Origin: Haloplanus sp. HW8-1
GTDB taxonomy: Archaea; Halobacteriota; Halobacteria; Halobacteriales; Haloferacaceae
DNA: 64,000 nucleotides
NCBI RefSeq assembly: GCF_023703795.1
Contig: NZ_CP098518.1
Location: 2,790,001-2,854,000 of the forward strand
Direction: 5' to 3'
Positions within the stretch are counted from its first letter, which is position 1, and each line of letters begins with the position of its first letter. Shown in pieces: positions 34,908-58,365 of the stretch. A program made the translations under genes and the position numbers. Below the pieces are notes generated by a model, which worked only from the letters and a program-made list of their open reading frames with translations, was not told the DNA's origin and did not search any database.

Positions 34908-36115
34908 GCGCGATGCACGTCGTCCACCTCTACGACGGTCACGAGAAAGTGTACGACGGCCGGGGGTCGGTCCCGGGCGTCGTCTGGAACCTGGCACGGG
35001 AGACGGTCGCGCGCGGCCACGAGGTCACGGTCGTCGAACGTCAGTGGCGGGACCTCGACGTGACGGCGGCCCACGAGGGCGTCGCCTTCCACCGGCTGGC
35101 GCTGGCGACGGGGAGCGCGGAGCCCTGGGACCAACTCCCCTACGAGATGGTGTCGAGTCCGCTCGGGGCGGTGCGACTGATCGTCGACCGGGCCAACTTC
35201 GCCCGCGCCGCCGTTCCCCTGCTTGCCCACCACGATCCGGACGTGATCCACGTCCACCTCCCGTTCGCGGCGAACGTCCTCGTGACCGTCGCGTCCCGCT
35301 TCCGGGACCGACTCGTGTACACGGCCCACCTCGGGGAGACCGAACAGCGCGTGGTGGAACCACGCGTCTCGCCGGACGTCTACCTGGCCAAGCGGGCGGC
35401 CCGGACGATCGCGCTGAACCCCTCGATGCACGAGGCGTTCGCCGACCGCGGCGTCTCGGAGGGGGCGCTCGAAACCATCCCCAACGGCGTCGACACGACG
35501 CAGTTCGACGGCGTCACCGACGCGGACCGCGCCGGCGTGGCCGAGCGGTTCGGCGTCGACGCCGACGTGGTCGCCCTGTTCGTCGGCACGGTGACGCCGC
35601 GGAAGGGCGTCCTGGAACTCGCGCGGGCGGCCGGCCGGATCTTCCCCGTCGACGCCGACGCCGAGGTGGTCGTCGTGGGCAACACCGAGTTGGACGCCGA
35701 GTACGTCCAGTCCGTCGAGGACGCGATTACAGAGGCGGGGATCGACGACGACGTGACGCTGACCGGCTTCGTCTCCGAGCGAGACCTCGCCGCGCTCTAC
35801 GACCTCGGCGACGTCGTCGTCCTGCCGTCGTACGAGGAGGGATCGAGCATCGCCGTCGCCGAGGCGCTCGCCGCCGGGACGCCCGTGATCGGCACGCGGA
35901 TCGACGGGATCAGACAGCAGATCGACCACGGACGACACGGGTTGCTCTCGGAACCGGGCGACGTCGACGAACTGTCGCGGCACCTGGAGACGCTACTCAC
36001 CGACGACGAACGGCGCGAGACGATGGCGGCGGCGGTCGACGAGCGCGCCCACGATCTCTCGTGGTCACGGATCACGGGCGACGTCCTCGACGTCTACCGG
36101 GAGGTGGCGGCGTGA
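34904..36115 (+). CDS. GT4-family glycosyltransferase
   Basis: A 403-residue GT-B enzyme. MHVVHLYDGHEKVYDGRG begins the acceptor domain, VIHVHLPFAANVL follows, and the donor domain shows VALFVGTVTPRKGVLELARA, VVVVGNTEL and the E-x7-E region SYEEGSSIAVAEALAAG. The GTG at 34904 is chosen because it overlaps the previous stop by 4 nt like every other junction in the block; ATG 34913 is the alternative. It overlaps the following gene by 4 nt. Confidence 0.9.
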   Translation: MSAMHVVHLYDGHEKVYDGRGSVPGVVWNLARETVARGHEVTVVERQWRDLDVTAAHEGVAFHRLALATGSAEPWDQLPYEMVSSPLGAVRLIVDRANFARAAVPLLAHHDPDVIHVHLPFAANVLVTVASRFRDRLVYTAHLGETEQRVVEPRVSPDVYLAKRAARTIALNPSMHEAFADRGVSEGALETIPNGVDTTQFDGVTDADRAGVAERFGVDADVVALFVGTVTPRKGVLELARAAGRIFPVDADAEVVVVGNTELDAEYVQSVEDAITEAGIDDDVTLTGFVSERDLAALYDLGDVVVLPSYEEGSSIAVAEALAAGTPVIGTRIDGIRQQIDHGRHGLLSEPGDVDELSRHLETLLTDDERRETMAAAVDERAHDLSWSRITGDVLDVYREVAA

Positions 36116-37362
36116 GAAACGTCGTCCTCGTGACGTTCGACAGTCTCCGGGCGGACCACTGCGGGTTCATGGGCTACGACCGCGACACCACGCCGACACT
36201 CGACGCGATGGCCGCCGAGGGGCTGAACTTCGAACACGCCATCTCGCCGGGGCCGTCGACGCCGGAGTCCATGCCGGTGATCATGACCGGGGAGTTCCCG
36301 GTCGGCAGCGACGATTCGGGGTCGTCGCTGCTCGCGACCCGCCGGGCCAAGATCAGGCGACACATGAAGACACGGGAGACGCTGGCCGAGCGCTTCGGCC
36401 GGGCGGGGTACGCGACGGCCGCCTTCTCGCCGAACCCGTACACCTCGCGGTACTTCGGATTCGATCGGGGGTTCGACCGCTTCGAGGACTTCATGGGCGG
36501 CTCACGGGAGGAACTGTACCAGCGGATGCTCGACGGCGCACTCGCCGGCCTTCCGCTCGGATCGGTGCTGCCGGTCCGAATCCTCCTCAACTGGATCCAG
36601 CGCGAGGAAGTGTTCAAACCGTGGGAGGACTTCTACGACGCGATCCGCGCGTGGACCGAACAGGCCCCCGAGCCGTACTTCCTGTGGATCCTGCTGATGG
36701 ACACCCACGATCCGTACCTCGTGCCCGACGACTACCGGACCCAGTCGTGGCGGGCGATGTACCACGCCAACTATCGGCTCTGGCGACAGGGCCACGAGCC
36801 GCCGTTCTCGGAGACGACCCACGAGCGACTGGTGCGGGCGTACGACGACTCCATCGCGTACGCGGACGCGTTCCTCGACCGACTGCGGACCGACCTCGCG
36901 GACGACGACCCGCTGATCGCCGTCCACGGCGACCACGGCGAGGCGTTCGGCGAACACGGCACCTACGGCCACCACCAGCGACTGTTCGAGGAGAACGTCC
37001 ACGTGCCATTCGTCGTCGAGGGGGCGGCCGACCGGAACGTGACGGCGCCGGTCACGCTCCAGCGGACGCCGGAGCTCCTCGAATCGCTCGCCATCGACGG
37101 GGAACTGCCGGCGTTCGACGACCGGAACGTGCCGGCCCGGACGCTCGACGTGGACCGGTCGGCCGTGCGCGCCCGGACGTACAAGTACCTGCGCGACGGG
37201 GACGAGGTACGCCTGTACGACCTCGTGACCGACCCCGGGGAGGAGTCGCCGAGTCGCGACCTCGACCCCGTGGCTCGGGCGCCGGTGACGGCACGGGAGG
37301 AACACGTCGCCGAGCGGCGTCGGATTCGCGACGCGGTGTCGGACCGGGGGGATCGGCTGTGA
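36112..37362 (+). CDS. Sulfatase-like alkaline-phosphatase-superfamily protein 1
   Basis: A 416-residue enzyme with the superfamily metal sites: NVVLVTFDSLRADHCGF (D10) and VHGDHGEAFGEHGTYGH (D274, H275). Where sulfatases carry the formylglycine motif C/S-x-P-x-R, it reads PGPSTPESMPVIMTG, with T50 in the nucleophile place. LDP-type sulfatase annotation is therefore uncertain; phosphoryl or phosphodiester chemistry is plausible. No signal peptide is present, so it is predicted cytoplasmic. The GTG start overlaps the GT4 stop by 4 nt. It is very similar to the next gene. Confidence 0.85.
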   Translation: MRNVVLVTFDSLRADHCGFMGYDRDTTPTLDAMAAEGLNFEHAISPGPSTPESMPVIMTGEFPVGSDDSGSSLLATRRAKIRRHMKTRETLAERFGRAGYATAAFSPNPYTSRYFGFDRGFDRFEDFMGGSREELYQRMLDGALAGLPLGSVLPVRILLNWIQREEVFKPWEDFYDAIRAWTEQAPEPYFLWILLMDTHDPYLVPDDYRTQSWRAMYHANYRLWRQGHEPPFSETTHERLVRAYDDSIAYADAFLDRLRTDLADDDPLIAVHGDHGEAFGEHGTYGHHQRLFEENVHVPFVVEGAADRNVTAPVTLQRTPELLESLAIDGELPAFDDRNVPARTLDVDRSAVRARTYKYLRDGDEVRLYDLVTDPGEESPSRDLDPVARAPVTAREEHVAERRRIRDAVSDRGDRL

Positions 37363-38687
37363 CCGACCGTCGAAACGTCGTGCTGGTGAGCGTCGACAGT
37401 GTCCGGGCGGACCACTGCGGGTTCATGGGCTACGACCGCGACACCACGCCCACCCTCGACGCGATGGCCGAGACGGGGCTGTACTTCGAGAACGCCGTCG
37501 CGCCCGGCCCGAGCACGTACGACTCGATGCCGGCCGTCTTCACCGGTCGCCGGATGGCGCCACACACCGTCGGGGAGACGTTCGAGGGCGACACGCTCGA
37601 CCGCAAGACCGAGAACATCGCACGGAACATGCACGGCGAGACGCTCGCCGAGTGGTTCGACCGCCAGGGCTACGCGACCGGGGCGTTCACCACGAACCCC
37701 TACACGGGCGAGCACACCGCGTTCGCGCGCGGCTTCGACCGGTACGAGGATTTCATGGACGGCGGCGAGGGGACGCTCATGCAGAAGGCCGCCCACGTCC
37801 CGGTGTTCGCGGAACTCAAACACCTCGTGACGCTCGTCCGGGGCGACCGGGCGTCGATGCGGTGGTCCGAGTACTATCGGGAGATCGTCGAGTGGGTCCG
37901 GAATGCCCCGGAGCCGTACTTCCTCTGGATCTTCCTGCTCGATACGCACACGCCGTACCTTGTCGACGGCGAGTACCGATCGGAGACGGGACCGCTGGGT
38001 ATGTACTACCACAACTGGAAACTGTGGATGGCCAAGAAGTGGCTGGACTCGGACGGGTCGTCGCTGGATCGCGACAGCCTCGTCTCGCTGTACGACGACG
38101 CGATCCGCGCCACGGACGCGTTCCTCGACCGACTGCTCGCCGATCTGGGCGACACCGATCCGGCGGTGGTCGTCCACGCGGACCACGGCGAGGCGTTCGG
38201 CGAACACGGCACCTACGGCCACCAGGGAACGCTCTACGAGGAGAACGTCCACGTGCCGCTGGTGGTCCACGGCGGGACGGTCGAGGGTGTGGAGCGGCGA
38301 CCGACCTCGTTGACCCAGCTCCCGGCCATCCTCCGGGCGGTCGCGAGCGACAGAGACCCACGGGACGGGGCGACCGATCGGCCGGACATCGCCACGGCGA
38401 CGACGTGGGACGGGCGGCGGTTCGCCGTCCGGGGCCGGCGGCTGAAATACATCGCGACGGTTGATCCCGAGACCGGAAGCCCCACCGAGGAAGCGGTGTA
38501 CGATCTGGCGTCCGACGAGGACGAGCAGCGGAACCTCGCGGCAGAACACAGGGCTGTCGTCGACGCATGTCGGACGATGGTCCAGCAACAGTTTCACCAC
38601 GGAAAAGAGGTGACGAACGTCGCGGATCGGGCCGCGGCGTTGGTGGCGGAGGAAGACGAGACTGCGAAGACCCCCGATCGATCATGA
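37359..38687 (+). CDS. Sulfatase-like alkaline-phosphatase-superfamily protein 2
   Basis: A 442-residue paralogue of the preceding protein: VVLVSVDSVRADHCGFMGY (D13), PGPSTYDSMPAVFTG (T53; the proline after Thr is replaced by Tyr) and VHADHGEAFGEHGTYGH. The shared GYDRDTTPTLDAMA implies tandem duplication. A C-terminal extension of about 30 residues is added. The GTG start overlaps the upstream stop by 4 nt, and its TGA overlaps the GT2 ATG by 4 nt. It probably decorates the glycan assembled by the flanking transferases. Confidence 0.85.
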   Translation: MTDRRNVVLVSVDSVRADHCGFMGYDRDTTPTLDAMAETGLYFENAVAPGPSTYDSMPAVFTGRRMAPHTVGETFEGDTLDRKTENIARNMHGETLAEWFDRQGYATGAFTTNPYTGEHTAFARGFDRYEDFMDGGEGTLMQKAAHVPVFAELKHLVTLVRGDRASMRWSEYYREIVEWVRNAPEPYFLWIFLLDTHTPYLVDGEYRSETGPLGMYYHNWKLWMAKKWLDSDGSSLDRDSLVSLYDDAIRATDAFLDRLLADLGDTDPAVVVHADHGEAFGEHGTYGHQGTLYEENVHVPLVVHGGTVEGVERRPTSLTQLPAILRAVASDRDPRDGATDRPDIATATTWDGRRFAVRGRRLKYIATVDPETGSPTEEAVYDLASDEDEQRNLAAEHRAVVDACRTMVQQQFHHGKEVTNVADRAAALVAEEDETAKTPDRS

Positions 38688-39628
38688 AAACGAGCATCAT
38701 CATCGCGACGTACGAACGCCAGGACGACGTGGTCGAGTGTGTCCACTCCCTCCGCAATCAGTTCGAGCAACCCGACGAGATAATCATCGTCGACGACGGC
38801 GATCTCGAGCGCACACGGGACCGTCTCGCCGAAAACGGGATGCTCGATGACGTCACCCACATCGGCGGGCCGGGCGAGGGGCGGATGGCGAGTCGGAACG
38901 TCGGCGTCGCGAATGCGTCCGGGGACATCGTCTGCTTTCTGGACGACGACGTGATTCTGCCACCGATCTGGCTGCGTGAAGTGGTCGAAACGTACGAACG
39001 AAACGAGGACGCCAGCGGCGTCGGGGGGCACGTGTTGAACTTCAACCCCGACGAAATCCGGAAAGCCAACATGGAGTCGCTCGGGTACCGGGCGCTCACC
39101 GCGTTTCGGCTACTGTTTCTGCACGACAGAATCGGTGACTTCAGTCCGATCGGCGTCCTCTGGGCGCCGCATACGCTCGTCGGCGGCGGTGAACAGGACG
39201 CCGAGGCGTTCCAAGGCTGCAACATGACGTTTCGGGCCGACGTGTTCGAGGAGTACGAGTTCGACGAGTGGTACGGCGCGACCGGCTCGTTCACCTGTGA
39301 GGAACTCGATATCTGTGCGCGTCTGGCCGCCGACGGCCGTCGGCTGGTGTACAATCCCCGTGCGACGGTCGTCCACAAGCGGAGCACCGGTCCCGACAGG
39401 CAGACGGACGGACCGGACTACGCCAACGTGACCAACCTGTCGTACTTCCTTCTGAAGAGCCCCCGCTTCGGCGTAGCGAATTTTCTTCTGTTCGCGTGTC
39501 TGATCACGGGATATTCGTTGCTCGGCCGTGACGCCGAATACGTCAAACGGGTGTTCGCGGGACTGGGGCATTACGCACGACAGACCGACTCCGGATGGCT
39601 GACCAGTCTGACGAGCAAGCTACTATGA
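38684..39628 (+). CDS. GT2-family glycosyltransferase
   Basis: A 314-residue GT-A enzyme: SIIIATYERQDDVVECVHSL, EIIIVDDGDLERT, IVCFLDDDVILPPIWLREVV (DxD motif), FQGCNMTFRADVF and GATGSFTCEELDICARL, the acidic catalytic-base region. A hydrophobic stretch near 275-295 (ANFLLFACLITGYSLLG) suggests membrane attachment. Its ATG overlaps the stop of sulfatase-like protein 2 and its TGA overlaps the next ATG, each by 4 nt. Confidence 0.9.
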   Translation: MKTSIIIATYERQDDVVECVHSLRNQFEQPDEIIIVDDGDLERTRDRLAENGMLDDVTHIGGPGEGRMASRNVGVANASGDIVCFLDDDVILPPIWLREVVETYERNEDASGVGGHVLNFNPDEIRKANMESLGYRALTAFRLLFLHDRIGDFSPIGVLWAPHTLVGGGEQDAEAFQGCNMTFRADVFEEYEFDEWYGATGSFTCEELDICARLAADGRRLVYNPRATVVHKRSTGPDRQTDGPDYANVTNLSYFLLKSPRFGVANFLLFACLITGYSLLGRDAEYVKRVFAGLGHYARQTDSGWLTSLTSKLL

Positions 39629-40557
39629 ACGACGAGACAGTCTCGGTGGTCATTCCGACGTACTTCCGGAACGAACGGCTGCGCGAGGCCATCGAGAGCG
39701 TCCGGGCACAGACCTACGAGCCGATCGAGATCATCGTCGTCGACGGCTCCGAGGAGGCACACGCTCGTCCGGTCGCCGAGAACTACGACGTCCGGTACAT
39801 CCCACAGGACGAGGACCGGGGGCCACACGCCGGGCGGAGCGAGGGCGCACAGGTGGCCGAGGGAGCGTACGTGAACTTCCTCGACGACGACGACCGGTTT
39901 CACCCGCGAAAGATCGAAAAGCAGCGATCGGTGCTCGACGCGAACGACGAGGTCGGCGTGGTCTACTGTGGCATCGAGTGGGAGAACGGCCACCCGGTGC
40001 TGCCCGATCCCGACGTGCGGGGCGACGTCCTCGACCGGGCGCTCATGTTCGACATGACGCCGAGTAGTCCGTCGACGATGCTGATCGACGCCGACGTACT
40101 CGACGCGATCCTCCCCTTCGAGAACCTCCACGGCGCCGACGACATGGGGATGAAGATCGAACTGGCCCAGCGGTGTGCGTTCGATTTCGTGGACGAACCC
40201 CTGGTGACCAAGGGCGACGACGGCGACGGTCTCGGCGGCTCGCGGGAGAACATCGAAGGGCGGTTCACGCTCGTCGACCGGTATCGGGACCTCTACGACC
40301 GACATCCGCCACACGTTCGCCGAACCGCCGTGGGTCACACGCACCTCCTCGACGCGGAGTTGACGCTGAACCGGACGGTGTGGTCGCCGCGAGCGATCAG
40401 GCAGGCGGCGCTGGCGTGCTATCACGTGCCGGGGCTGCCGCTCTCTTTCGCCGGCTATCTGGTCGCGTCCGTGTTCGGCCGGCCGGGACGTGACGTCGCG
40501 AGGGGGGTCTACTCGGCGCTGGTACTCGGCGACGAACACCGGGGCAAGATCACGTAG
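39625..40557 (+). CDS. GT2-family glycosyltransferase (paralogue of 31447)
   Basis: A 310-residue GT-A enzyme: VSVVIPTYFRNERLREAI, IEIIVVDGSEEAHARPV, YVNFLDDDDRFHPRKI and GADDMGMKIELAQRC. It matches the minus-strand GT2 at 31447-32388 end to end, including GVVYCGIEWENG and the C-terminal SALVLGDEHRGK. ATG 39625 is used because it overlaps the upstream stop by 4 nt; an in-frame ATG at 39595 would add ten residues. It is the last gene of the coupled block and convergent with sulfatase-like protein 3. Confidence 0.9.
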   Translation: MNDETVSVVIPTYFRNERLREAIESVRAQTYEPIEIIVVDGSEEAHARPVAENYDVRYIPQDEDRGPHAGRSEGAQVAEGAYVNFLDDDDRFHPRKIEKQRSVLDANDEVGVVYCGIEWENGHPVLPDPDVRGDVLDRALMFDMTPSSPSTMLIDADVLDAILPFENLHGADDMGMKIELAQRCAFDFVDEPLVTKGDDGDGLGGSRENIEGRFTLVDRYRDLYDRHPPHVRRTAVGHTHLLDAELTLNRTVWSPRAIRQAALACYHVPGLPLSFAGYLVASVFGRPGRDVARGVYSALVLGDEHRGKIT

Positions 40558-40563
40558 CCGGCG

Positions 40564-41859
40564 CTACCCGTCGTCGGGGATCGTCTCCGCGGCCGCGGAG
40601 ACGGCGGCACACTCCCAGCCGTGTGCGTCGAACCGATCGAGGACCGCCCGCAGGAGGGCGGCGGGTTCGGCCATCTCGGCCTCGGCGATCAGGTTTCGCG
40701 TCTCGCCCGGGTCGACGGTCGTTCGATACAGCTCCGCCGGCTGGAAGTCGTAGAGGTAGTCGGCGAACGTCTCGTCGGCGCTGATATACGTCCAGTCGTC
40801 GGTCCGGACGGCGGTCCGTTCGGCCTCCTCGGTCCGGGAGAGGAGGAAGTTACGGGCGGAGGCAGTCGGATCGAGACCGCCGGAACCGGCACGGGTGACG
40901 TACGCCGGCAGATCCCGGAGTGTGACGGGAGTCTCGATCCGGCCCGTCGTCTCGGCCCCGTGGATCAGGAAGGGGACGTGGAGGTTCTCCTGGTAGAGTT
41001 GGGGACGGTGGCCGTAGGTGCCGTGTTCGTGGAACGACTCCCCGTGGTCGGCGTGGACGACGGTCGTCGGATCGTCGTCCGCGAGGTCGTCGAGGAGGCG
41101 GTCGACGAACGCGTCCACCGACCGGACGGTGTCCCGATAGGCGCGCGCGAGGCGGGTTTCGAGGTGAGCGGGGAGCGGATCCGTATACCCGTGAAACCGA
41201 CTGTGGCGGACGTTGCTGTAGTACATCGCCGGCGTGGAGTTCTCCTCGCGATAGCGAGACGGGGTGAAGTAGGGTTGGTGAGGGTCGAGGAGGAAGACCC
41301 AGAGGAAGTACGGTTCGTCGAGTTCCGCACGGGCCTCGATGATCAGGTCGTAGAAGTCGGGCCAGGTGAGCAGCCAGTCGTCGACGCCGGCGTCGGTGAG
41401 CGTGCCGATCGCCCGTCCGAGCGGGAGGCTCCGGGGTTCGACGTCGCTGTTCTGGACGGCGTGGAAGACGTCGAATCCCCGGTCGAAGTTGGTCTCCGCG
41501 TCGGTCCACGGGTTCGCGGTGACGCCCGCGGTGTCGTAGCCGAGCGCCCCGAACCGTTCGGGCACGGTGCGAAAGCGATCGAGGTGTCGCCGGATGCGGG
41601 CACGTCGCTCGACGTGTGCCGACCGCTTCTCGTCGTAGCTCCGGTACACGCCGAGGTCGCGCTGCCGGACGAACTCGCCGGTGAAGACGACCGGCATCGA
41701 CGACGGCGTTCGGGGGCCGGGGGCGAACGCCTGTTCGAAGACGAGGCCGTCGGCGGCCATCGCGTCGAGGGTCGGCGTCAGGTCGCGGTCGGCGCCCAGA
41801 AAGCCACAGTGGTCCGCACGCAGGCTGTCGACGGTGACGAGGATCACGTTCTCGCTCAT
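40564..41859 (-). CDS. Sulfatase-like alkaline-phosphatase-superfamily protein 3
   Basis: A 431-residue protein: NVILVTVDSLRADHCGFLG (D11), PGPRTPSSMPVVFTG with T51 at the nucleophile place and Arg just before it, FLLDPHQPYFTPSRY and VHADHGESFHEHGTYGH. The C/S-x-P-x-R formylglycine motif is absent. No signal peptide is visible. It is transcribed toward the GT2 operon and separated from it by only 6 nt, so it is a unit of its own with its promoter near 41870-41930. Confidence 0.85.
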   Translation of the reverse strand: MSENVILVTVDSLRADHCGFLGADRDLTPTLDAMAADGLVFEQAFAPGPRTPSSMPVVFTGEFVRQRDLGVYRSYDEKRSAHVERRARIRRHLDRFRTVPERFGALGYDTAGVTANPWTDAETNFDRGFDVFHAVQNSDVEPRSLPLGRAIGTLTDAGVDDWLLTWPDFYDLIIEARAELDEPYFLWVFLLDPHQPYFTPSRYREENSTPAMYYSNVRHSRFHGYTDPLPAHLETRLARAYRDTVRSVDAFVDRLLDDLADDDPTTVVHADHGESFHEHGTYGHRPQLYQENLHVPFLIHGAETTGRIETPVTLRDLPAYVTRAGSGGLDPTASARNFLLSRTEEAERTAVRTDDWTYISADETFADYLYDFQPAELYRTTVDPGETRNLIAEAEMAEPAALLRAVLDRFDAHGWECAAVSAAAETIPDDG

Positions 41860-42533: not shown

Positions 42534-43352
42534 TCAGGCCAGCGGCAGCGCGGGGACCACGCCGGCCGAGACTGCGGGAAGCACGACCATGAGAGACAGG
42601 TTCACCGTTCCACGGCAGACGATCGGCACCACCAGCGACTCGCTCAGTTCGTAGCCGAGTCCGTAGATCACGCCCGCACCGAGCGCGAGAGCGACGGCCG
42701 TCCCGCCGAACGCAGCCTGCATCGTGGCGAACACCACGGCGACGGTACCGACGCCGAACCACGGGCCGACGGAGCGACGGAGCGCGGACTGCAGGACGCC
42801 ACGGAGGAGGACCTCCTCGGCGATCACGCCGACGACGACGACCGCGCCGAGCAGCCACAGGCCGTCGCCCGTCACCGTCGGGAGGAGGGAAGGGACGTCG
42901 ACGAGACGAGATTCGACGGCGCCGACGACGGCCCCGACGACGACCGCGGCCGGGGTCCACAGAAGCGTCCCCCGCGGATCGAGCAGCGGTTCCACGGCCT
43001 CGCTACGCCGGAGATACCACATGCCTGCGAGGGGAAACGGGGCGTACACCAGCGGCACCCAGAGGACGGTCAGATCGAGGAAGACGGGCATCGAGAGGTT
43101 GACCAGCCGAAACACCGTCAGCAAGGCGAACCCCGCGAGGACGGGGACGGGACTCGGCACGCGGAGCGGGAGGAGCGTACAGAACAGGAGGATGACGACG
43201 TAAACCCAGAGCGCCGACTGGACCAGCCCGGCGGAGAGGAACAGTTCACCCAAGAGGAGTCCCAGCGCCGGGAGGAACACGGCCAACATCGCGTTCGACG
43301 TGACGTCCGGAGCCACGTCGAGGGACGTCGAGGGGAGGGAGATCCGAGACAT
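42534..43352 (-). CDS. CPBP/Abi-like intramembrane protease homologue, degenerate motifs
   Basis: A 272-residue protein with about eight membrane segments. Motif 1 of the CPBP (CAAX protease/bacteriocin-processing) family is intact: GVIAEEVLLRGVLQSA (E179, E180, R184). The histidines of motifs 2 and 3 appear replaced: FATMQAAFG has Gln212 for FxxxH and RGTVN has Arg247 for HxxxN. It may be a non-catalytic member. A TTTTATAACT promoter on the minus strand lies at about 43371-43380, 27 nt before the ATG. Confidence 0.8.
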   Translation of the reverse strand: MSRISLPSTSLDVAPDVTSNAMLAVFLPALGLLLGELFLSAGLVQSALWVYVVILLFCTLLPLRVPSPVPVLAGFALLTVFRLVNLSMPVFLDLTVLWVPLVYAPFPLAGMWYLRRSEAVEPLLDPRGTLLWTPAAVVVGAVVGAVESRLVDVPSLLPTVTGDGLWLLGAVVVVGVIAEEVLLRGVLQSALRRSVGPWFGVGTVAVVFATMQAAFGGTAVALALGAGVIYGLGYELSESLVVPIVCRGTVNLSLMVVLPAVSAGVVPALPLA

Positions 43353-43543: not shown

Positions 43544-43777
43544 TCACCCGTCGAGGTAGCCGAGCGACTCCAGGCGGTCCCTGACCTCGTCCTCGTCAAC
43601 CTCCTCGAAGTCGTCGTCTTCGGTCTCCTGTTCGACGTGGTAGAGAACCTCTTCCATGACGAAGGTGATGTAATCGGCCGGGTCGTCCCACTCGGTCCGC
43701 GGGAGGCGGTCCTCGACTCGCTCGACGATTCGGGTCGGCAGTTCGACCGCCCGTGCCTGCTCGTACTCGTTCGACAT
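43544..43777 (-). CDS. Small ribbon-helix-helix-like protein (77 aa)
   Basis: MSNEYEQARAVELPTRIVER opens a strand-helix-helix pattern (AVELPTRIVERVEDRL, then DPADYITFVMEEVLYHVEQ) like CopG-type antitoxins and regulators, followed by an acidic C-terminal region ending RDRLESLGYLDG. Related small proteins are common in haloarchaeal sulfatase loci. It is divergent from sulfatase-like protein 4. DNA or protein binding is inferred. Confidence 0.65.
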   Translation of the reverse strand: MSNEYEQARAVELPTRIVERVEDRLPRTEWDDPADYITFVMEEVLYHVEQETEDDDFEEVDEDEVRDRLESLGYLDG

Positions 43778-44050: not shown

Positions 44051-44116
44051 ATGTGTGGGGGTAGCTTCACGATCGAGACGCCGACGGACGGCACCGCGTG
44101 GCCGGACGGAGCATGA
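44051..44116 (+). CDS. Candidate 21-residue leader peptide
   Basis: MCGGSFTIETPTDGTAWPDG ends in Ala-TGA, the TGA overlapping the ATG of sulfatase-like protein 4 by 4 nt (ATGA at 44113). It begins at the first ATG after the TATA region. It repeats the arrangement at 34705 and, loosely, at 4474. Confidence 0.4.
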   Translation: MCGGSFTIETPTDGTAWPDGA

Positions 44117-45612
44117 GCCGACCGAACATCCTGCTGGTCGTCTGGGACGCGTGTCGACGCGACGCCGCGCGCGAGCACGCACCGACGCTGTCGAATCTCG
44201 CCGCGTCGAACGTCCGGTTCGAGAACGCGATCACGCCGGGGGGGTCGTCCCTGCCGGCACACGTGTCGATAGCGACCGGCACGTATCCGGACGAACACGG
44301 CGTCGTCCGCCAGTCACATACGATCGACTCCGTGCCCCTCGTCGACACGCTGAACGCGGCGGGCTACCACACGGTCGGCGTCTCGGCGAACGGGTTCGCG
44401 TCCTCGAAGTACGGGTTCGACGCCCCCTTCGATCGGTTCTACAACACGCAGGGGTTGGTCGTCTCCCCCGAGGGGTTCGACGTACACGAGTACGCGAAAC
44501 GCGTCGCGGACCGGACGGGCGAGCAGTTCTCGACGGACGACGTCGACTACGCGACCCTGGCGAAGCAGGTGCTCACGCACGAGCATCCCGTCGCCAGCGC
44601 GCTGAACCTCGGCGCGGCCGCCCTCGCGGAACTGGTCGGGGCGTATCCGGCCCTCCGTCGGATCCCCCACCCCCGATTCAGCCGGTTCAACGAGTTCTGT
44701 TACGATCCCGCGAAGAACACGAACCGCATCACGCGGGTGTTCGAGGAGCACGCGGAGCGCGACCGGCCGTTCTTCGTGTTCGCGAACTACATGGACCCCC
44801 ACCACCCGTACGCGCCCCCCGAACGCTACCAGCGGGAGTACTGCGGGCGATCCTTCTCGTATCGAGAGTTGCGGCGACTGAGCCACGAGACCCATCCCTG
44901 GAACTACATGGAGCGGATCGCCGCCGGCGACCCACCCTCGGAGGAGTGGCTCGACACCGTTCGCGACCTGTACCACGGCGAGGTCCGGACCGCCGACGAC
45001 CACCTCCGGCGGCTCCTCGATACCCTCGACCGGACCGGGTTGCGCGAGGAGACGCTGATCGTCGTCACAGCCGACCACGGGGAGAACCTGGGCGAGACGG
45101 ATCGACTGGGCGAGCGGCGAATGGGCCACGTCTGCTCCGGGAGCGACCACCACCTTCGGGTGCCGCTCGTCGTCGCCCATCCCGACCTCGGGAACCGGAC
45201 GGTCGAGCAGTACGTCTCGCTGAAGGACCTGTTCGGACTGCTGACCGAGGGAGCCGACCGGCTGGGCGAGTCGACGGGCGATCCGCTCGCTCCGCTACTG
45301 ACCGAGGCGGTCGTCTCGGCAGCGGTCCCGGCGACGGACAACGACGCGCTGGTCGAGAAGTATCCGGAACTGGCCGACGTCCTCGGCCGACACCTCGTCG
45401 CGTCGTACGTCGACGAGTGGGCGGCCGTCGTCGCCTCGACCGGCGAGGAGCGCGTCTGGCGGGACGGGACGGAACGCGACCCCCGGGAGGCGCCGCCGGA
45501 CCTGCTCGAGACGAGCCAGGAACGTCTCGGGGGACTGGTCGAGGCCGCGACCGAGGACCGGGCGCTGAGCGAGGGCGAAATCGCCCACCTCGAAGCGCTC
45601 GGGTACATGTGA
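44113..45612 (+). CDS. Sulfatase-family protein 4
   Basis: A 499-residue protein, longer than the other five and more sulfatase-like: NILLVVWDACRRDAAREH (D12), TPGGSSLPAHVSIATGTYP with S46 in the nucleophile place (S-L-P-A-H for C/S-x-P-x-R), FANYMDPHHPYAPPERY and VVTADHGENLGETD. It ends EGEIAHLEALGYM, the C-terminal 'L-x-ALGY' motif common to many sulfatases. No signal peptide is seen. It precedes the flippase gene by 68 nt and is probably in the same unit. Confidence 0.86.
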   Translation: MSRPNILLVVWDACRRDAAREHAPTLSNLAASNVRFENAITPGGSSLPAHVSIATGTYPDEHGVVRQSHTIDSVPLVDTLNAAGYHTVGVSANGFASSKYGFDAPFDRFYNTQGLVVSPEGFDVHEYAKRVADRTGEQFSTDDVDYATLAKQVLTHEHPVASALNLGAAALAELVGAYPALRRIPHPRFSRFNEFCYDPAKNTNRITRVFEEHAERDRPFFVFANYMDPHHPYAPPERYQREYCGRSFSYRELRRLSHETHPWNYMERIAAGDPPSEEWLDTVRDLYHGEVRTADDHLRRLLDTLDRTGLREETLIVVTADHGENLGETDRLGERRMGHVCSGSDHHLRVPLVVAHPDLGNRTVEQYVSLKDLFGLLTEGADRLGESTGDPLAPLLTEAVVSAAVPATDNDALVEKYPELADVLGRHLVASYVDEWAAVVASTGEERVWRDGTERDPREAPPDLLETSQERLGGLVEAATEDRALSEGEIAHLEALGYM

Positions 45613-48330: not shown

Positions 48331-49379
48331 AACAGTTCGTCGACTGCCGTGTCGATAGCTTCGACCTGTTCACGCTTCTTTCGTCGTAGCTTTTCTTGAT
48401 CGATCGTCGAGAATCCGTCCGTGATCTCCCTGTCCATCACTTCGTCGAAGAGTTTGGATCGACCGGTCTCGTAGTAGAGATACGCCTCGCTTCCGTAAAC
48501 GAGGGTCGGAACACAGGCGTGAACCCGATCCGAGATGGTCCGATCGGTGTTCGCGTAGATGGTCAGATAATCCTCCAGGAGATCGGAAACGAACACGTTC
48601 GGATCGTCGAAATAGCCGTCGCCGAGGTGTGCCGCGAGTATGGATTTGAGCGAGGCGAGGATATCGGTGGACAGTTCCACGTTCTTTCCGGTGGGTCGTA
48701 GGAACTCCTTGATCACTCCCTGGAACGGGAACCCGAAGGGATCGTGATGCGGACGGATCACCTCGGCGTCCGACCGAAGCGTCGGTTCGGTTCGCTTGTC
48801 GAACGCAGCCGTGATGTACTCTTTTTCCAGGTCCGGTGGCTCGAACCAGTCGTTTATGAAGAACGCGCAGTCGATTCCTTCCCGGGAATACGCCACCGTA
48901 TCGGAATAATATTCGTAGGCTGTTCCGTCGCGTGATATCAACCCGACGGAGTCGAGTTCGCGGAGCTGTCCCCTGACGTAGTTTCGCATCGGATCGTTGT
49001 ACGTGCCACCCCCACCCAAAATCAAGATGGGAATCCCTCGGTCACTGATGGATCGCAGCGTGCTGTGATACTTTCTCAGCGCGTGCGTGGTGAGAACGCA
49101 GCCGGGGAGAACGGCGAGATCGAACTCCATGCTCTCGGGGAGTTTGAACACGTTTTCGACCTCCTGCGGGGCTTTCGAGTAGTCGATCCTGTTCGCGATC
49201 TGTCCGAGTAATCCGTCGATTCCCCCCATGGCGTTCTCGTCCGCCGCCGCTACCCCGTAGCCGCTGGCCTCCACGATATTAGCGTCCGGAAAAGCCGCAG
49301 TGAGTTGTGCCTTGGCGCCTTTATCGATGAACCCGTTGCCGATGTTTCGAATCCAGGTCCGCAGGAGGAGTATGTCCAT
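48327..49379 (-). CDS. Polysaccharide pyruvyl transferase-like protein
   Basis: A 350-residue protein fitting the CsaB/WcaK family: LLRTWIRNIGNGFIDKGAKA at the start, PILILGGGGTYNDPMRNYV in the middle and the family C-terminal histidine motif SDRVHACVPTLVYG, followed by a short helical tail. These enzymes add pyruvate ketals to sugars, though many archaeal members are uncharacterised. It is co-translated with the next GT4 gene (4-nt overlap), so the modified sugar is probably part of the same glycan. Confidence 0.75.
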   Translation of the reverse strand: MDILLLRTWIRNIGNGFIDKGAKAQLTAAFPDANIVEASGYGVAAADENAMGGIDGLLGQIANRIDYSKAPQEVENVFKLPESMEFDLAVLPGCVLTTHALRKYHSTLRSISDRGIPILILGGGGTYNDPMRNYVRGQLRELDSVGLISRDGTAYEYYSDTVAYSREGIDCAFFINDWFEPPDLEKEYITAAFDKRTEPTLRSDAEVIRPHHDPFGFPFQGVIKEFLRPTGKNVELSTDILASLKSILAAHLGDGYFDDPNVFVSDLLEDYLTIYANTDRTISDRVHACVPTLVYGSEAYLYYETGRSKLFDEVMDREITDGFSTIDQEKLRRKKREQVEAIDTAVDELL

Positions 49380-52700: not shown

Positions 52701-52932
52701 TGCGTCTACCTCACCGTGAGGCCGGATCTATTTACCCATTAGGGCCACGGTATCAGACGCGATATCCGGAGGGTTCGGCCGCGAAAGCATACGTTTCGGA
52801 GAATGTCCGCCGGGGGACCGAGGCCGGATTCGCGTCCTGTGCCCGCCGATCGAAGCCCGTCAGCGCGTTCCTCACTGGTCAATCGTGTGACCGATAACTC
52901 TAATTGAGTGGACAGTTCAATAAAACACGTAA

Positions 52933-55206
52933 ATGTGGGAACACGTGAGACGGTATCGGGTGGAACACCTCGCCATCGCGGTCACGGTGCTGTTCGGTGC
53001 GATCGCTCTGCTCGACGAGACGCTGGTGGAACTCCCCCTCGTTCGGCCCGTGGTCGGCTTCGTGTTCCTGACCTTCGCGACCGGCGGTGTGGTCCTCACG
53101 GCGCTCGGGTTCGAGCCCTCGGTGCGCGCCCGATCCCTGATCTACACCGTGGGCGTGGGCCTGATGAGCGTGATGCTGATCGGGCTCGTCCTGAACGCCG
53201 GGTTTCTGCAACTCGGGCTGGCGGACCCGCTCTCCCCGCTCCCCCTCGTGGTGGCGCTGTCCCTGTCGACGATCGGGATCGCCGTCGCGACCCTCTGGTA
53301 CCGCTCCGGTCCGACGGTCGACGACCTCGCGCCCGACCCCGCGCGGGTGTGTGGGCTGCTCCGCGAGGACGGCCTGCAGGTGGGACTCGTCCTGTTGCTG
53401 CCGGTCGCGGGGGTCCTCTCGGTCGTGTACCTGAACGGGACGAACGAGGCCGCGCCGCTCCTGGTGGTCCTGGCCGCGGTCGCGAGCGTTCCCCTGTTCG
53501 CGGTGATGGGGTTCGTCGACGAACGGTATCTGGCGTTCGCAGCGTGGGGAACGGGGCTGACGATCCTCTATCACAAGACCGTCTGGGTGGGGAGCGTGTA
53601 CGGCGGACACGCGTCGACGGTCGGGGTGTACGAGCAACACGTCTGGACCATGAGCGGGGAGACGCTCCTGCCGAATGCGGTGCTCATGCCCGCGTACGCA
53701 CACGTGCTCGATGTTGGCATCATCACCCAGACACAGATCGTCATGCCGGCGATGGTCGCGTTCATTCCGCCCGCCCTCTACGTGACGTTCCGCGACTACA
53801 CGTCGCCCTCGCTCGGCTACCTCGGCGCGGCGATATTCATGTTTGCCCACCCGTTTTACTACCAGTATCCCTCGACGCCGCGGGCGTCGATCCCGGTCCT
53901 GTTTCTGGTGTTGATCGGGACGGTGATGAGCGATACCGGGACGGCGCCCATCGTGCGACGTAGCCTGGCCCTGCTGTTCGCGGCCGGGCTGGCCGTGTCC
54001 CACTACGGGACGTCCTACTACGCGCTGTTCGCCCTCGGGGGGGCGCTGCTGGTGCTCGTGCAGTTCAGGCTGTTCGACCGCGTCGCCGAGTCGATAGCGG
54101 CGAAGCGGGCCGTGGCCGACGGGAGCGGGTCCGAGGACGGACTGTTGAGCAGGGTGCCTCCGAACCTGCTCAGACTCGACTTCGTCGCGTTTTACGCCAT
54201 CGTGGTCACGGCGTGGTACTACTACATCGATCGGAGTTCGAAGTTCGTCTCGATCGCCGAACACGTCGTCAGCTCGTTCGCGGGCCTGTTCGAGTCGGGA
54301 GGCGGGGCGACGGCGACTCGCCTGAGCACGGACTACGGCGGCCTGTCGATCCGCTATTCGAAGTACGTCTACCTGATCGTCGCGTCGTTGAGCGGCTTTG
54401 GACTCGCACTGGCCTTCGTCCGCCGGTACGTCCCGGCGTTGCGGACCGAGTTCTCCGACGAGTATCTCGCGACCACGGCACTCCTGTTCGTGCTGTTCGG
54501 CGGGACGTTCATCATGTCCGGACAGTGGGGCGGCGGGCGGCCGATGATGATCGTCCTCAGTTTCAGTGCGGTCTTCACCGCGGTGGCGGCCAACGAGTGC
54601 GGTCGAGCGATAGCTGCGGGGTGTGAAGCGGGCGCCCGTCGGATCTCGGGACGCCTCGCTGCGGCCGTCGACCGCGCACCCACCCTCCTCGGCGGGAAGG
54701 TCGCCCTCGCGACCGTCCTCGCGGTGTTCTTCCTGCTGAACTCGGGGTTCATGGCCGCGGTCGCGTACGGCGGCGAAGCGCCGAGCAACGTGCCACAGTC
54801 CGACACCGACGACGTGTACACGACCTACGACATCGAGACGCACGTCTGGCTGGCCGATCACCGCGACGTCAACTATCCGATATCCGGTGATCGCAACGCG
54901 CGGGCGCAGACGACGGACTGGATGAACGGCGAAATCGCGGCCCGAAGCGAGCGGTCGCCGTATCGGTTCAGGAAATCCAGCCAGTTCACGTCGGTGAACG
55001 ACTCGGAACTGGGGCGTGGCTACCTCCTCCTTATGGGACACAACGTCGAGGAGGACCGAGCGGTGGTGAACTACGTCGTCTCGCGACCGATGAGCGCGTA
55101 CGATCTGGAGACCGACAGGCGACACAGGGTGTACTCGAACGGCGCCGGCCGCGTGTACTTCGTCGGAAACGACACGCGGACGTTCACGGGCGGGGAGGCG
55201 ACCTGA
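52933..55206 (+). CDS. Polytopic membrane protein, DUF2206-like (possible glycan polymerase)
   Basis: A 757-residue protein with about 14 membrane segments in residues 10-590 and an external C-terminal domain (about 610-757) rich in polar and aromatic residues. The segments YYQYPSTPRASIPVLFLVL and LAVSHYGTSYYALFALGG resemble archaeal DUF2206/GT-C-type proteins. A polymerase, ligase or mannosyltransferase role in surface glycan assembly is inferred from the topology and setting. No diagnostic catalytic motif is visible. Confidence 0.7.
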   Translation: MWEHVRRYRVEHLAIAVTVLFGAIALLDETLVELPLVRPVVGFVFLTFATGGVVLTALGFEPSVRARSLIYTVGVGLMSVMLIGLVLNAGFLQLGLADPLSPLPLVVALSLSTIGIAVATLWYRSGPTVDDLAPDPARVCGLLREDGLQVGLVLLLPVAGVLSVVYLNGTNEAAPLLVVLAAVASVPLFAVMGFVDERYLAFAAWGTGLTILYHKTVWVGSVYGGHASTVGVYEQHVWTMSGETLLPNAVLMPAYAHVLDVGIITQTQIVMPAMVAFIPPALYVTFRDYTSPSLGYLGAAIFMFAHPFYYQYPSTPRASIPVLFLVLIGTVMSDTGTAPIVRRSLALLFAAGLAVSHYGTSYYALFALGGALLVLVQFRLFDRVAESIAAKRAVADGSGSEDGLLSRVPPNLLRLDFVAFYAIVVTAWYYYIDRSSKFVSIAEHVVSSFAGLFESGGGATATRLSTDYGGLSIRYSKYVYLIVASLSGFGLALAFVRRYVPALRTEFSDEYLATTALLFVLFGGTFIMSGQWGGGRPMMIVLSFSAVFTAVAANECGRAIAAGCEAGARRISGRLAAAVDRAPTLLGGKVALATVLAVFFLLNSGFMAAVAYGGEAPSNVPQSDTDDVYTTYDIETHVWLADHRDVNYPISGDRNARAQTTDWMNGEIAARSERSPYRFRKSSQFTSVNDSELGRGYLLLMGHNVEEDRAVVNYVVSRPMSAYDLETDRRHRVYSNGAGRVYFVGNDTRTFTGGEAT

Positions 55207-55273
55207 TTGTGACCCGACGGTCGTCGGCCTCCCTCGCCGCGGGGAGTCCGCCGGAGACAGGGGGTGTGCCTGA

Positions 55274-55492
55274 ATGAACGAGCGCGTCCTCGAATCGTCG
55301 GTCGTCGTGTTCACGGCGGCCGTGACGACCGCCGTCATACTCGGGATCCCGGTCGCCATCGGCGTCGTGTTTCCCTACGGGCGCTTCGCTCCCGCGGAAG
55401 GGCTCGCCATTCTGCGGGTCGGCGCCCCGTTCCTGTTGCTGTTCGCCGTCGCGTTCCTCGTCGAACGAACGCTCGGGACGAACGAACACTGA
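55274..55492 (+). CDS. Small membrane protein (72 aa)
   Basis: MNERVLESSVVVFTAAVTTA starts a 72-residue protein with two hydrophobic segments (about 8-33 and 45-63) and a charged end (ERTLGTNEH). It lies 67 nt downstream of the polytopic membrane protein and is probably co-transcribed with it, perhaps as an accessory subunit. Not recognised. Confidence 0.6.
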   Translation: MNERVLESSVVVFTAAVTTAVILGIPVAIGVVFPYGRFAPAEGLAILRVGAPFLLLFAVAFLVERTLGTNEH

Positions 55493-55708
55493 CGTCGAGG
55501 ACGATCACGCGTCGAGGCGACGAACGCCCGTTCGGTGGCGCGACGTCCACAGGAGTGGCGGTGACGGATGGGGTGTGCTCCCACCACGGCCCGCCGAAGG
55601 GTCGCCGGGGCGGCCATCGACCGTCGGGGCCGGACGCGGATCGGCCGGACCACCGGTCTCGGCGGGACGGTCGTCCGGAGCCGGCGTCTCGTGGCAAGAC
55701 GGTCCCGA

Positions 55709-56941
55709 TCAGAGAGCCCCTGCGTCGAGCGTCGGCGCCGTCGACCGGAGCGTGACACGCTCGCCCCAGTCGTTTCGGAACGACCGGACGTATTCGTGGA
55801 GCGCGTCCCGCAGCCCGGTCAACTCGGCAGCGAGGTTCTCCCGCTCGTTCGGATCGGTTTCGAGGTCGTACAGTTCGTCGCCGTCCGGGGTCGCGATGTA
55901 CTTGTACCGCGCCGTCCGGACGGCGGTGCGGCCACCTTCCGTGGAGTGTGCCACGACCGGCACGCGCCCGGCCTCGTACCGCCGGGACAGCGACGCCGCG
56001 TCACCGTCCGCGATCGTCCGAATCGCGTCCGGAATCGACCGGAGCGAGACGGGCCGGTCGACGGTCGCGCTGGCCGGCACACCGCCGATCACGTACGGGA
56101 CATGGAGGTTCTCCTCGTACAGATGCCGCTCGTGTCCGTAGACGCCGTGCTCGCTCAGCGCTTCCCCGTGGTCGGAGTGGATGAGATACGCCGGATCGGT
56201 GTCGGCGAGGTCGGTGGTGAGACGGTCGACGAACGCGTCGACGTACCGCACCGTATCCTCGTACGCGCTCACGAGCCGTCCGTGAGCCGCGTCCGGATCG
56301 TTGACGTTGTGCGCGCGCCAGTTCGCATACATCATCCCCAGCCACGAGTTCTTCCGTCGATACGCACGCGGGACCAGGTACGGGGAGTGAACGTCGAGCA
56401 GGAACACCCACAGAAAGTACGGTTGTGACGCGTCGCGAACGCGGGCCACGACGTCGTCGTAGTACCCCTCCCACCGTTTCCAGTTGCCCTCCCCCCGGAC
56501 GAGTTTGATGAGTCCCCTGAGGTGGTTCGGGATATCGAACCCGGGCCGGATATCCTCGTCGAGAAAGTCGTTGAAGAAGTCGAACCCTTCGCCGAAGCCG
56601 AAGTATCGCGAGGTGAACCCGTTCGGCGTGAACGCTATCGTCTCGTACCCGCGATCCGAGAGAGATTCGGGAATCGTCTCCCGTTTCAGCATATGTGACT
56701 CGATATCCGCCTGCCAGGAGTCGAGTTCCGAGTCCGTCCGATGGCCGGTCGGATACTGTCCGGTGAAGATGGCAGGCATCGACTCGGGCGTCTTCGGTCC
56801 CGGAGCGATAGCGTCCCGAAAACAAATACCGTCCGTAGCCATCCGATCGATGGTGGGCGTGAGTTCGACGCCCGGATTCAGGTGACCACACCGATCGGCT
56901 CGAAGACTGTCGATGGTTATCAGAACGATATTCGGGTTCAT
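55709..56941 (-). CDS. Sulfatase-like alkaline-phosphatase-superfamily protein 5
   Basis: A 410-residue protein: PNIVLITIDSLRADRCGHL (D11), PGPKTPESMPAIFTG with T51 at the nucleophile place and Lys before it, FLLDVHSPYLVPRAYRR and IHSDHGEALSEHGVYGH. The formylglycine motif is missing, as in relatives 1-3 and 6. ATG 56941 gives the family N-terminus; an in-frame ATG at 56977 would add 12 residues. It is divergent from protein 6 across a 179-nt gap. Confidence 0.85.
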   Translation of the reverse strand: MNPNIVLITIDSLRADRCGHLNPGVELTPTIDRMATDGICFRDAIAPGPKTPESMPAIFTGQYPTGHRTDSELDSWQADIESHMLKRETIPESLSDRGYETIAFTPNGFTSRYFGFGEGFDFFNDFLDEDIRPGFDIPNHLRGLIKLVRGEGNWKRWEGYYDDVVARVRDASQPYFLWVFLLDVHSPYLVPRAYRRKNSWLGMMYANWRAHNVNDPDAAHGRLVSAYEDTVRYVDAFVDRLTTDLADTDPAYLIHSDHGEALSEHGVYGHERHLYEENLHVPYVIGGVPASATVDRPVSLRSIPDAIRTIADGDAASLSRRYEAGRVPVVAHSTEGGRTAVRTARYKYIATPDGDELYDLETDPNERENLAAELTGLRDALHEYVRSFRNDWGERVTLRSTAPTLDAGAL

Positions 56942-57120
56942 ACAGGCAACCGGATTGTCGGTAGTATCCGCTGACATGTAACTTTTCCTCAAAAACGGCG
57001 GGATTGCGCCACGGTGCCCGGAGTCGGGGCGGTCCACCGGCGCAGTCGCGTGATGAGTTCCCGAGGCGTGTCGACACAGGTCTTTATCTTACCACTGGTC
57101 GTACAGTTCCGTATCGTATC

Positions 57121-58365
57121 ATGAGAAATACAGTTCTCGTCACCGTGGACAGTTTGCGCGCGGACCACGTCGCGCCATACGCGGACGTTGAGACCACGCC
57201 GGAACTGGAGGGGTTGGCAGACGACGGGGTCGTGTACGAACGGTCGATCGCACCCGGTCCGAGCACCCCCCAGTCGATGCCCGCGATATGGACCGGGAGC
57301 TACCCGACATCGGCCGTCGGCGGAGATGTCCGGGACGTCATCGAGCGCCACGTAGACACTCGAACGACCCTCGCCGAGCGGTTCTCGCAGTCGGGATATG
57401 CGACGGCCGCGTTCACGCCGAACCCGTTCACCTCGCGTCACTACGGGTTCGACGAGGGATTTGACACGTTCGAGGATTTCTTGGACCCGGGAGGCCGGAT
57501 CGATCGGCTTCGCTCGCGGGTCGTCACCCGATGGATGGAGCAGGGGTCGACGTTCGGGATCAGATTCGCCCTGAATATGCTCGGTGTGGGGGATCTGACG
57601 ATGAGTTGGGAATCGTATTACGATCGGATCGTGGAGTGGGTCGACCAAGCTCCGGAACCGTGGTTTCTGTGGGTCTTCTTGCTCGAACCGCACTGGCCGT
57701 ACCGACCGCCACGTCGCCATCGCGACAGCTCGATCCTGGAGATGTATCGCGCGAACTTGCGGCGCGCGCCCGCGACGGACTCCACGCCGTCGGCCGAGGA
57801 TCGCGAGCGTCTCCTCCGGCTGTACGAGGGGACCATCCGCCACGTGGACGAATTCATCGGACGGATACGGCGCGAGTTCGACGAACCGATCGTCGCAGTC
57901 CACGGCGACCACGGTGAGGGGTTCGGCGAACACGGTGAGTGGGGACACGGAAGCGTCGGATTCGACGGGCCGCTCTTCGAGGAAAACGTTCGCGTGCCCC
58001 TCGTGATCGGCAACGTCGATCAAGAAACTATCGAGCGCCCCCTCTCGCTGCGATCGCTCGGGGACATTCTGATATCGGCGGCGGGTGGGGACCCCGACTG
58101 GAGCGAATTTTCGCGACGATGGGTGGTGACGAAATCCGCGACGGTCGGATTGCGGGGGAGTGAGTGGAAGTTTTTGAAGTCCGCCGACGAATCGAGGGCG
58201 TATGCTCTGCAATCGGACCCCGGTGAGCGAACCCCACTGTCGGACGGCCATCCCCTGGTGGAACTCGGAGAGCGCCTGGCAGCGGCGTTCCAGGAGTCAC
58301 AGAGCGAGAGGGAGCGCCTCGAGAGAGCGGCGGAGTCCGTGAGCGAGCACTCCGGGCGCCTATGA
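57121..58365 (+). CDS. Sulfatase-like alkaline-phosphatase-superfamily protein 6
   Basis: A 414-residue protein: TVLVTVDSLRADHVAPYAD (D10), PGPSTPQSMPAIWTG (T49), FLLEPHWPYRPPRRHRD and VHGDHGEGFGEHGEWGH. It lacks the C/S-x-P-x-R signature and a signal peptide. The C-terminal 30 residues are a charged helix (RERLERAAESVSE). A CTTTATCTTA box lies 30-39 nt upstream. Close similarity to proteins 1, 2, 3 and 5 places all five in one lineage. Confidence 0.85.
   Translation: MRNTVLVTVDSLRADHVAPYADVETTPELEGLADDGVVYERSIAPGPSTPQSMPAIWTGSYPTSAVGGDVRDVIERHVDTRTTLAERFSQSGYATAAFTPNPFTSRHYGFDEGFDTFEDFLDPGGRIDRLRSRVVTRWMEQGSTFGIRFALNMLGVGDLTMSWESYYDRIVEWVDQAPEPWFLWVFLLEPHWPYRPPRRHRDSSILEMYRANLRRAPATDSTPSAEDRERLLRLYEGTIRHVDEFIGRIRREFDEPIVAVHGDHGEGFGEHGEWGHGSVGFDGPLFEENVRVPLVIGNVDQETIERPLSLRSLGDILISAAGGDPDWSEFSRRWVVTKSATVGLRGSEWKFLKSADESRAYALQSDPGERTPLSDGHPLVELGERLAAAFQESQSERERLERAAESVSEHSGRL

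Follow-up and report, generated by a model that had tools for sequence, protein, structure and literature searches.

The window analysed here, a stretch of 64,000 nucleotides from Haloplanus sp. HW8-1, carries six genes whose products match the sulfatase family PF00884. Five of these, called the Thr proteins below, are S1 (36112..37362, + strand, 416 aa), S2 (37359..38687, +, 442 aa), which overlaps S1 as the second of a pair, S3 (40564..41859, −, 431 aa), S5 (55709..56941, −, 410 aa counted from the ATG at 56941, in a frame that is open from 57037) and S6 (57121..58365, +, 414 aa). The sixth is S4 (44113..45612, +). An earlier note on this DNA had described six 'sulfatase' paralogues at this locus, and the profile search recovers all of them at these coordinates, with 106–134 bits against a cut-off of 25. 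The Thr proteins have diverged rapidly, to ~40–50% identity between one another, and belong to a clade defined here by 65 distinct haloarchaeal and acidobacterial proteins (70 genes); one viral relative was also matched (26%).

The genes between and around them belong to a surface-glycan assembly cluster. A family 4 glycosyltransferase (34913..36115, +) overlaps the start of S1, and the order of this gene followed by two sulfatase-fold genes is kept in other genera. Two family 2 glycosyltransferases (38684..39628 and 39625..40557, both +), a CAAX-protease-like membrane protein (42534..43352, −; also in clusters L001 and L088), an oligosaccharide flippase (Polysacc_synt; 45681..47231, +), another family 4 glycosyltransferase (47299..48330, −), a polysaccharide pyruvyl transferase-like protein just below the Pfam cut-off (48327..49379, −) and a DUF2206 membrane protein that is kept in sister clusters (52933..55206, +) also lie in this neighbourhood, together with a 77-aa protein discussed below. 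This glycosyltransferase and flippase context recurs in many genera and in Acidobacteria, and a pattern of four to six paralogues per assembly cluster is repeated in unrelated genera.

At the position where a sulfatase forms its formylglycine, the Thr proteins have T50, T53, T51, T51 and T49 (S1, S2, S3, S5 and S6), as the earlier note had claimed. Counting back from the conserved TG, this Thr stands at −9, the same place as the Cys/Ser of C/S-x-P-x-R; profile alignments against solved sulfatases put it at the formylglycine position, and a pairwise alignment to the NmEptA sequence matches it to the first Thr in GTSTAHSLP's counterpart segment. T50, placed at the start of helix 50–59 in the S1 model, is invariant in a 21-sequence alignment with a mean column identity of 37%, and because the nucleophile position is Thr in 65/65 of the wider clade, this conservation is not a matter of chance. 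The suggestion that Thr is the sole candidate nucleophile kept in all five proteins holds for the nucleophile position itself but not for its surroundings, where the Ser of SMP, at +3, persists in all five as well, and in 20/20 sequences of alignment A3 and 62/65 of the clade. The metal sites had been described as intact, and indeed D10, N108, H199, D274 and H275 are each found in 65/65 clade members and H287 in 64/65; divergence elsewhere in the protein has left the metal and nucleophile positions invariant.

The replacement is not peculiar to the window. Over 102 full-length homologues the same position is Thr in 90, Ser in 11 and Cys in one, and Thr or Ser is the rule among those sampled (101/102). 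The lone Cys homologue (L070) has C-x-P-x-R together with a Lys at the site that is His in every other homologue but one: the sulfatase signature is swapped as a unit. In place of C/S-x-P-x-R, the five Thr proteins have T-x-x-S-M and S4 has S-L-P-A-H; S4, which had been suspected of being different, does fall on a separate branch, and its motif lacks the Arg of the formylglycine motif. The Arg at +4 of sulfatases is missing from the Thr proteins, the Lys-x-His pair gives way to P/A/S-N-P/G at the K-M-H position, and the distal Lys is replaced by His. No PF03781 match was found in the genome by a search that covered the formylglycine-generating enzyme (FGE), as distinct from the anaerobic anSME route. 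Thr-type PF00884 proteins were already described in 2016 by Barbeyron et al. (PMC5066984), who assigned 30 of the family's 59 Pfam seed sequences to the Thr type; Thr cannot yield formylglycine (PMC5066984). The proteins of that set share the replacement of Cys/Ser by Thr but were uncharacterised, and some have T-x-N-x-E, whereas those considered here have T-x-x-S-M-P and form a defined haloarchaeal clade.

The S1 model (pLDDT 87.5, pTM 0.90) has as its best structural match BT1596 (5g2u), a glycan sulfatase, with a Z of 34.2 over 337 residues; the S4 model, with a pLDDT of 45, was left out of the structural comparison. As modelled, S1 combines a complete glycan-sulfatase fold with an EptA/MCR-like active site, made up of the Thr, the D-H pair and a distal His in place of the sulfatase Lys. 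The resemblance to S1-family glycan sulfatases such as BT1596 extends over the whole fold (Z 34), in contrast to the catalytic residues, which differ as described above. With EptA/MCR the Thr proteins share the nucleophile Thr followed by x-x-S-[ML]-P and the D-H-G-E with a His at +12 (the D-H-x11-H metal/phosphate motif), but EptA and MCR are membrane enzymes that act outside the cell on lipid A and have an N-terminal Glu, whereas the Thr proteins have an N-terminal Asp, no membrane part and a sulfatase-like C-terminal subdomain. EptA and LtaS are absent among the 50 structural matches listed for S1, which is not evidence of differing folds. The NCBIfam EptA/MCR models give scores of 56 bits or less against cut-offs of 404–1250, about a tenth. 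LtaS, too, acts outside the cell, whereas the proteins of the window have no membrane or secretion segment: no segment exceeds a hydropathy of 1.6 in any of the six proteins, and the PF00884 domain starts within the first few residues, with no N-terminal transmembrane domain. Judged from their sequences, the Thr proteins appear to be cytosolic.

The only tested haloarchaeal relatives in the superfamily are Agl30 (VNG1056C) and Agl31 (VNG1057C) of Halobacterium salinarum, reported as sulfotransferases that act on N-glycans: their deletion lowers N-glycan sulfation and their expression in Hfx. volcanii adds it (PMC11980604). They, too, are sulfatase-fold proteins of a glycan assembly cluster; Agl31 is cytosolic, and the published best structural match of Agl30 is BT1596, as for S1 (PMC11980604). 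They differ from the five Thr proteins in ending with an LxxLGY tail, which S4 has as well. The tail is read from the published cloning primers of both, and Agl30 and Agl31 thus probably belong to the other branch, that of S4. Searching the primer patterns against 392 genomes from the order, and against 13 from a single genus, gave no match. Two genomes from this genus each have an aglB-linked cluster (L081, L082), where the three genes of the sulfatase fold show Ser, Thr and T-P-E-W, and none has Cys; their orthology with Agl30 and Agl31 could not be shown. The gap between SO3 (79.9568) and HPO3 (79.9663) is just 2.4–3.8 ppm at the published m/z values, so the +80 gained by Hfx. volcanii expressing these proteins is not enough on its own to separate sulfate from phosphate; native sulfation in Hbt. 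salinarum rests on NMR (PMC11980604). Agl7 (HVO_2046) of Haloferax volcanii, which contributes to sulfation of a lipid-linked hexose (PMC3871713), is likened to the Thr proteins by description, as a haloarchaeal glycan-cluster protein tied to sulfation. In the genome analysed here we found no Sat-type ATP sulfurylase, no Sulfotransfer_3 and no APS kinase, the sole match to the latter being an FtsY-like P-loop protein; one CysD/PAPS-reductase-like protein scores far below the CysD cut-off. We rejected the PAPS pathway as a discriminator, as the same lack of a clear ATP sulfurylase and APS kinase may hold for sulfating species too.

The LxxLGY ending occurs in 107/110 other sulfatase-fold proteins of these loci, S4 (LEALGYM) among them, versus 0/70 Thr-clade genes (0/65 distinct proteins). 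In these loci its only carrier outside the alkaline phosphatase superfamily is a small unnamed protein of 60–90 aa. The one in the window, the 77-aa protein (43544..43777, −; divergent from S4), has a ribbon-helix-helix-like N-terminus, ends in RDRLESLGYLDG, the same tail as in S4, and matches no Pfam or NCBIfam family above cut-off. Such a protein is found in 37/46 Thr-clade clusters, acidobacterial relatives included, and missing from the other 9, versus 6/33 controls. From this co-occurrence we infer that the tail might be supplied in trans, the Thr enzyme and the 77-aa protein being a possible split enzyme–tail pair. Our literature searches found no known LGY tail and no published link of Agl30 or Agl31 to a small tail protein. 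We gave up the idea that the CysD-like protein shares its tail with the sulfatase-fold proteins, as CysD proteins from bacteria align over that same end, and CysD itself ends in GYF.

Our preferred reading, held tentatively and at a little under an even chance, is that the five Thr proteins are cytosolic group transferases that tailor the glycan, with sulfate likelier than phosphate and the tail provided in trans. The neighbouring glycosyltransferases would build the glycan and the Thr proteins, each perhaps specific for one sugar or position, would modify it before export by the flippase. The metal-activated Thr would take the group from a donor and hand it to a sugar hydroxyl, with the LxxLGY tail of the relatives coming from the 77-aa protein. 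The group would more likely be sulfate than phosphate or a phosphodiester because of the precedent of Agl30 and Agl31, and it is a precedent only; against it, the active-site motif has its nearest counterpart in the EptA/MCR phosphotransferases. A more specific and rather doubtful version is a split enzyme found in haloarchaea and Acidobacteria, in which a cytosolic Thr sulfo- or phosphotransferase without LxxLGY receives the tail from a dedicated 60–90-aa protein and the sulfuryl donor is perhaps not made via the Sat/APS-kinase route. Hundreds of haloarchaeal proteins are called sulfatases in databases; nearly all of our sample cannot be such enzymes, and the tested relatives, which are few, build glycans rather than degrade them. 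If the Thr enzymes do transfer sulfate, they would represent a sulfotransferase chemistry unlike that of the PAPS-dependent fold, for which the Thr offers a direct handle, and a tail in trans would offer a concrete and cheap route to the role of the LxxLGY end.

The earlier note had proposed phosphotransferases acting on surface glycans. The exclusion of formylglycine sulfatases, the EptA/MCR-like nucleophile and metal motif and the surface-glycan setting stand, but the moved group need not be phosphate: the lack of a membrane or secretion segment, the glycan sulfatases as nearest fold and the sulfotransferase reports for the tested relatives all argue against phosphate as a necessity. Transfer of phosphate, phosphoglycerol or a similar phosphodiester, as by EptA and LtaS outside bacterial cells, would agree well with the Thr aligned to that of NmEptA, the shared S-[ML]-P continuation, the presence, at +12 from D-H, of the EptA/MCR His and not the sulfatase Lys, and the missing Arg and K-x-H pair. 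We nevertheless regard it as unlikely, considering the absence of a membrane domain or export signal, the low EptA/MCR scores, an overall fold closest to soluble glycan sulfatases and a cluster whose annotated genes include none for a phospho-donor.

Trimming of glycans or lipid-linked precursors by Thr-nucleophile phosphodiesterases or phosphatases strikes us as less probable still. The Type I phosphodiesterase family has Thr as its nucleophile, and its profile also matches the five Thr proteins, at or near cut-off; however, several paralogues per assembly cluster, in unrelated genera, would suit position-specific addition better, and the tested superfamily relatives add groups (PMC11980604). 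The annotated identity as true formylglycine sulfatases, with which fold and family profile agree, we consider refuted on sequence, given a Thr that cannot become formylglycine (PMC5066984), the missing Arg, Lys and His of the site and a genome without FGE. The fast divergence of the paralogues might also be expected of catalytically idle scaffold or regulatory proteins, a reading that is very improbable in view of metal and nucleophile positions that stay invariant amid that divergence.

An earlier note placed a threonine at the formylglycine site of five sulfatase-like proteins, S1 (36112..37362, +), S2 (37359..38687, +), S3 (40564..41859, -), S5 (55709..56941, -) and S6 (57121..58365, +), and this threonine is indeed present (T50, T53, T51, T51 and T49), exactly nine residues ahead of the conserved TG, where formylglycine sulfatases carry Cys or Ser. 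It falls on the nucleophile position both in profile alignments with solved sulfatases and when paired with NmEptA, and all six window genes, including S4 (44113..45612, +), belong to PF00884 by profile search (106-134 bits vs the cut-off of 25). The claim that Thr is the only candidate nucleophile kept in all five went too far: Ser at +3 is likewise kept in 5/5, and Thr is therefore the best, not the sole, conserved hydroxyl. S4 has the S-L-P-A-H motif described for it and lacks the formylglycine-motif Arg, and in the tree it lies away from the five.

Among 102 full-length homologues from the fetched loci, nearly all haloarchaeal, the nucleophile position is Thr in 90, Ser in 11 and Cys in one, and the distal position is His in 100. 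The lone Cys protein (L070 1030-2442, -), the sole formylglycine-type sulfatase sampled, combines C-M-P-S-R, a C-x-P-x-R motif, with the distal Lys; the active-site type changes over as a set. The five window proteins fall inside one supported set (28 rows, SH-aLRT 99) but are split among different sub-branches, each with kin from other families, and are therefore old paralogues gathered in one cluster rather than recent copies. A gap in profile score sets off the Thr clade containing them, whose weakest member reaches 387 bits against 311 for the next protein; all 65 distinct proteins of the clade have Thr. Only one of 11 congeners has a close homologue, and most lack the clade. Formylglycine cannot arise from Thr, and 30 of the 59 PF00884 seed sequences were reported as Thr-type in 2016 (PMC5066984), so that the bare residue finding is not new. 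The Thr observation is correct and well conserved, yet among haloarchaea Thr is the usual residue, and it had been described for the family before. An aglB-linked cluster of two related genomes (L081 8914-10347, 13011-14261 and 14225-15160; L082 5006-7071) holds three sulfatase-fold genes, one of Ser type, one of Thr type and a short T-P-E-W one, which is without the TG and has no Pfam match.

In the AlphaFold model of S1, built from a 20-sequence alignment (pLDDT 87.5, pTM 0.90), T50 opens helix 50-59, and the best structural matches are glycan sulfatases, with BT1596 at the top (5g2u; Z 34.2, 337 residues, rmsd 2.5). BT1596 is also reported as the best structural match of Agl30 and VNG1063H in PMC11980604. 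Unlike sulfatases, the Thr-type site has no Arg after the nucleophile, no K-x-H pair and no distal Lys. Its D-H pair, with a His at +12, and its T-x-x-S-[ML]-P match those of EptA/MCR. The result is a sulfatase scaffold whose active site resembles that of a phosphotransferase. Searching the genome turned up no FGE gene.

Our best reading of the five is that they are cytosolic glycan-tailoring transferases of the Agl30/Agl31 kind, forming a distinct tail-less clade. By hydropathy, none of the six has a membrane-type hydrophobic segment (maximum 19-residue mean 1.49; four membrane proteins encoded in the cluster reach 2.3-2.9), and their neighbours are glycosyltransferase, flippase, DUF2206, epimerase and oxidoreductase genes. 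Halomarina, Halapricum, Halorientalis and others show the same GT4-sulfatase-sulfatase order together with DUF2206, a flippase and an S4-like gene; some lack parts of it. As to the group transferred, precedent favours sulfate and the active site favours phosphate, the group that the earlier note had proposed beside phosphoglycerol and phosphoethanolamine. According to PMC11980604, Agl31 is cytosolic, deletion of the sulfatase-fold genes for Agl30 (VNG1056C) and Agl31 (VNG1057C) lowers N-glycan sulfation, producing them in Hfx. volcanii adds +80 to the glycan of that host, and the native modification was located by NMR in work cited there; the passages covered discuss neither nucleophile nor donor. 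By our calculation 2.4-3.8 ppm separates sulfate from phosphate at the published masses, so the heterologous +80 data alone are indecisive. Agl7 also contributes to glycan sulfation in Hfx. volcanii (PMC3871713), and on the strength of Agl30/Agl31, the native NMR placement and Agl7 we tentatively rate sulfate above phosphate. Counting against sulfate, the genome yielded no Sat ATP sulfurylase, no APS kinase (the single match is an FtsY-like P-loop protein) and no Sulfotransfer_3; the only hint of sulfate activation is a CysD/PAPS-reductase-like protein scoring under the CysD cut-off (L107 1045-2013, +, own genome), with ~80% identity across haloarchaeal plasmids.

Primers published in PMC11980604 translate to the C-termini HLEDLGYL for Agl30 and LEELGYT for Agl31. 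Over loci of 10 kb or more, an L-x-x-[LM]-G-Y end, with up to four further residues, closes 107 of 110 other sulfatase-fold genes vs none of 70 Thr-clade genes (Fisher p about 6e-47, a statistic that ignores kinship). Of 15,302 open frames in the loci, 179 carry such an end. They comprise the 107 sulfatase-fold genes, a small protein (44 copies) and a remaining 28 which, judged by eye, encode further members of the alkaline-phosphatase superfamily or a piece of one.

In the window the gene of the small protein (77 aa; 43544-43777, -) is found between S3 and S4 and is transcribed divergently from S4; the protein has the consensus ..VelP..l..RvE.Rl..TeFds.deYv.fvLEEVL....vDeeeVedRLkSLGYL. Of the 46 distinct clusters with the Thr clade 37 contain it, compared with 6 of 33 in which every sulfatase-fold gene lies outside that clade (p about 5e-8, again ignoring kinship); it was not found in nine Thr-clade clusters within the DNA covered. 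A tblastn search of 72,556 plasmids recovered it in four records, all among the six with the best Thr-clade matches. It is often divergent from the Thr gene and in some cases in the same operon; with acidobacterial Thr relatives it lies ~2 kb upstream, in the order flippase, small protein, methyltransferase or acetyltransferase, unknown gene, Thr enzyme and GT4 (L012, partly L009). The small protein is linked to tail-less Thr-clade genes across haloarchaea and Acidobacteria and is probably their partner; on the simplest reading, the tail that other members carry in cis would be supplied to the Thr clade in trans. The main rival reading is that it is an RHH-type regulator, encoded divergently, with no more than the tail in common. 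In Pfam and NCBIfam the small protein gives weak ribbon-helix-helix matches, and no family scores over cut-off. Unnamed 60-90-aa proteins with an RHH-like start and an LxxLGY end were seen in L005, L007, L009, L011, L012, L100, L102 and L105.

Elsewhere in the glycan cluster, in its lowest-G+C part (0.53 at 48-51 kb), two adjoining beta-helix proteins (49416-50948 and 50961-52700, -) share the N-terminus MPTxNxxLNTPxEGxTDWHVPLNENFxSLDS and a weak likeness to phage depolymerases, and a relative was found near the L006 cluster. At 13407-20057 (+), the DNA polymerase II large subunit DP2 is split: intein segments carrying LAGLIDADG and homing-endonuclease domains lie within it.
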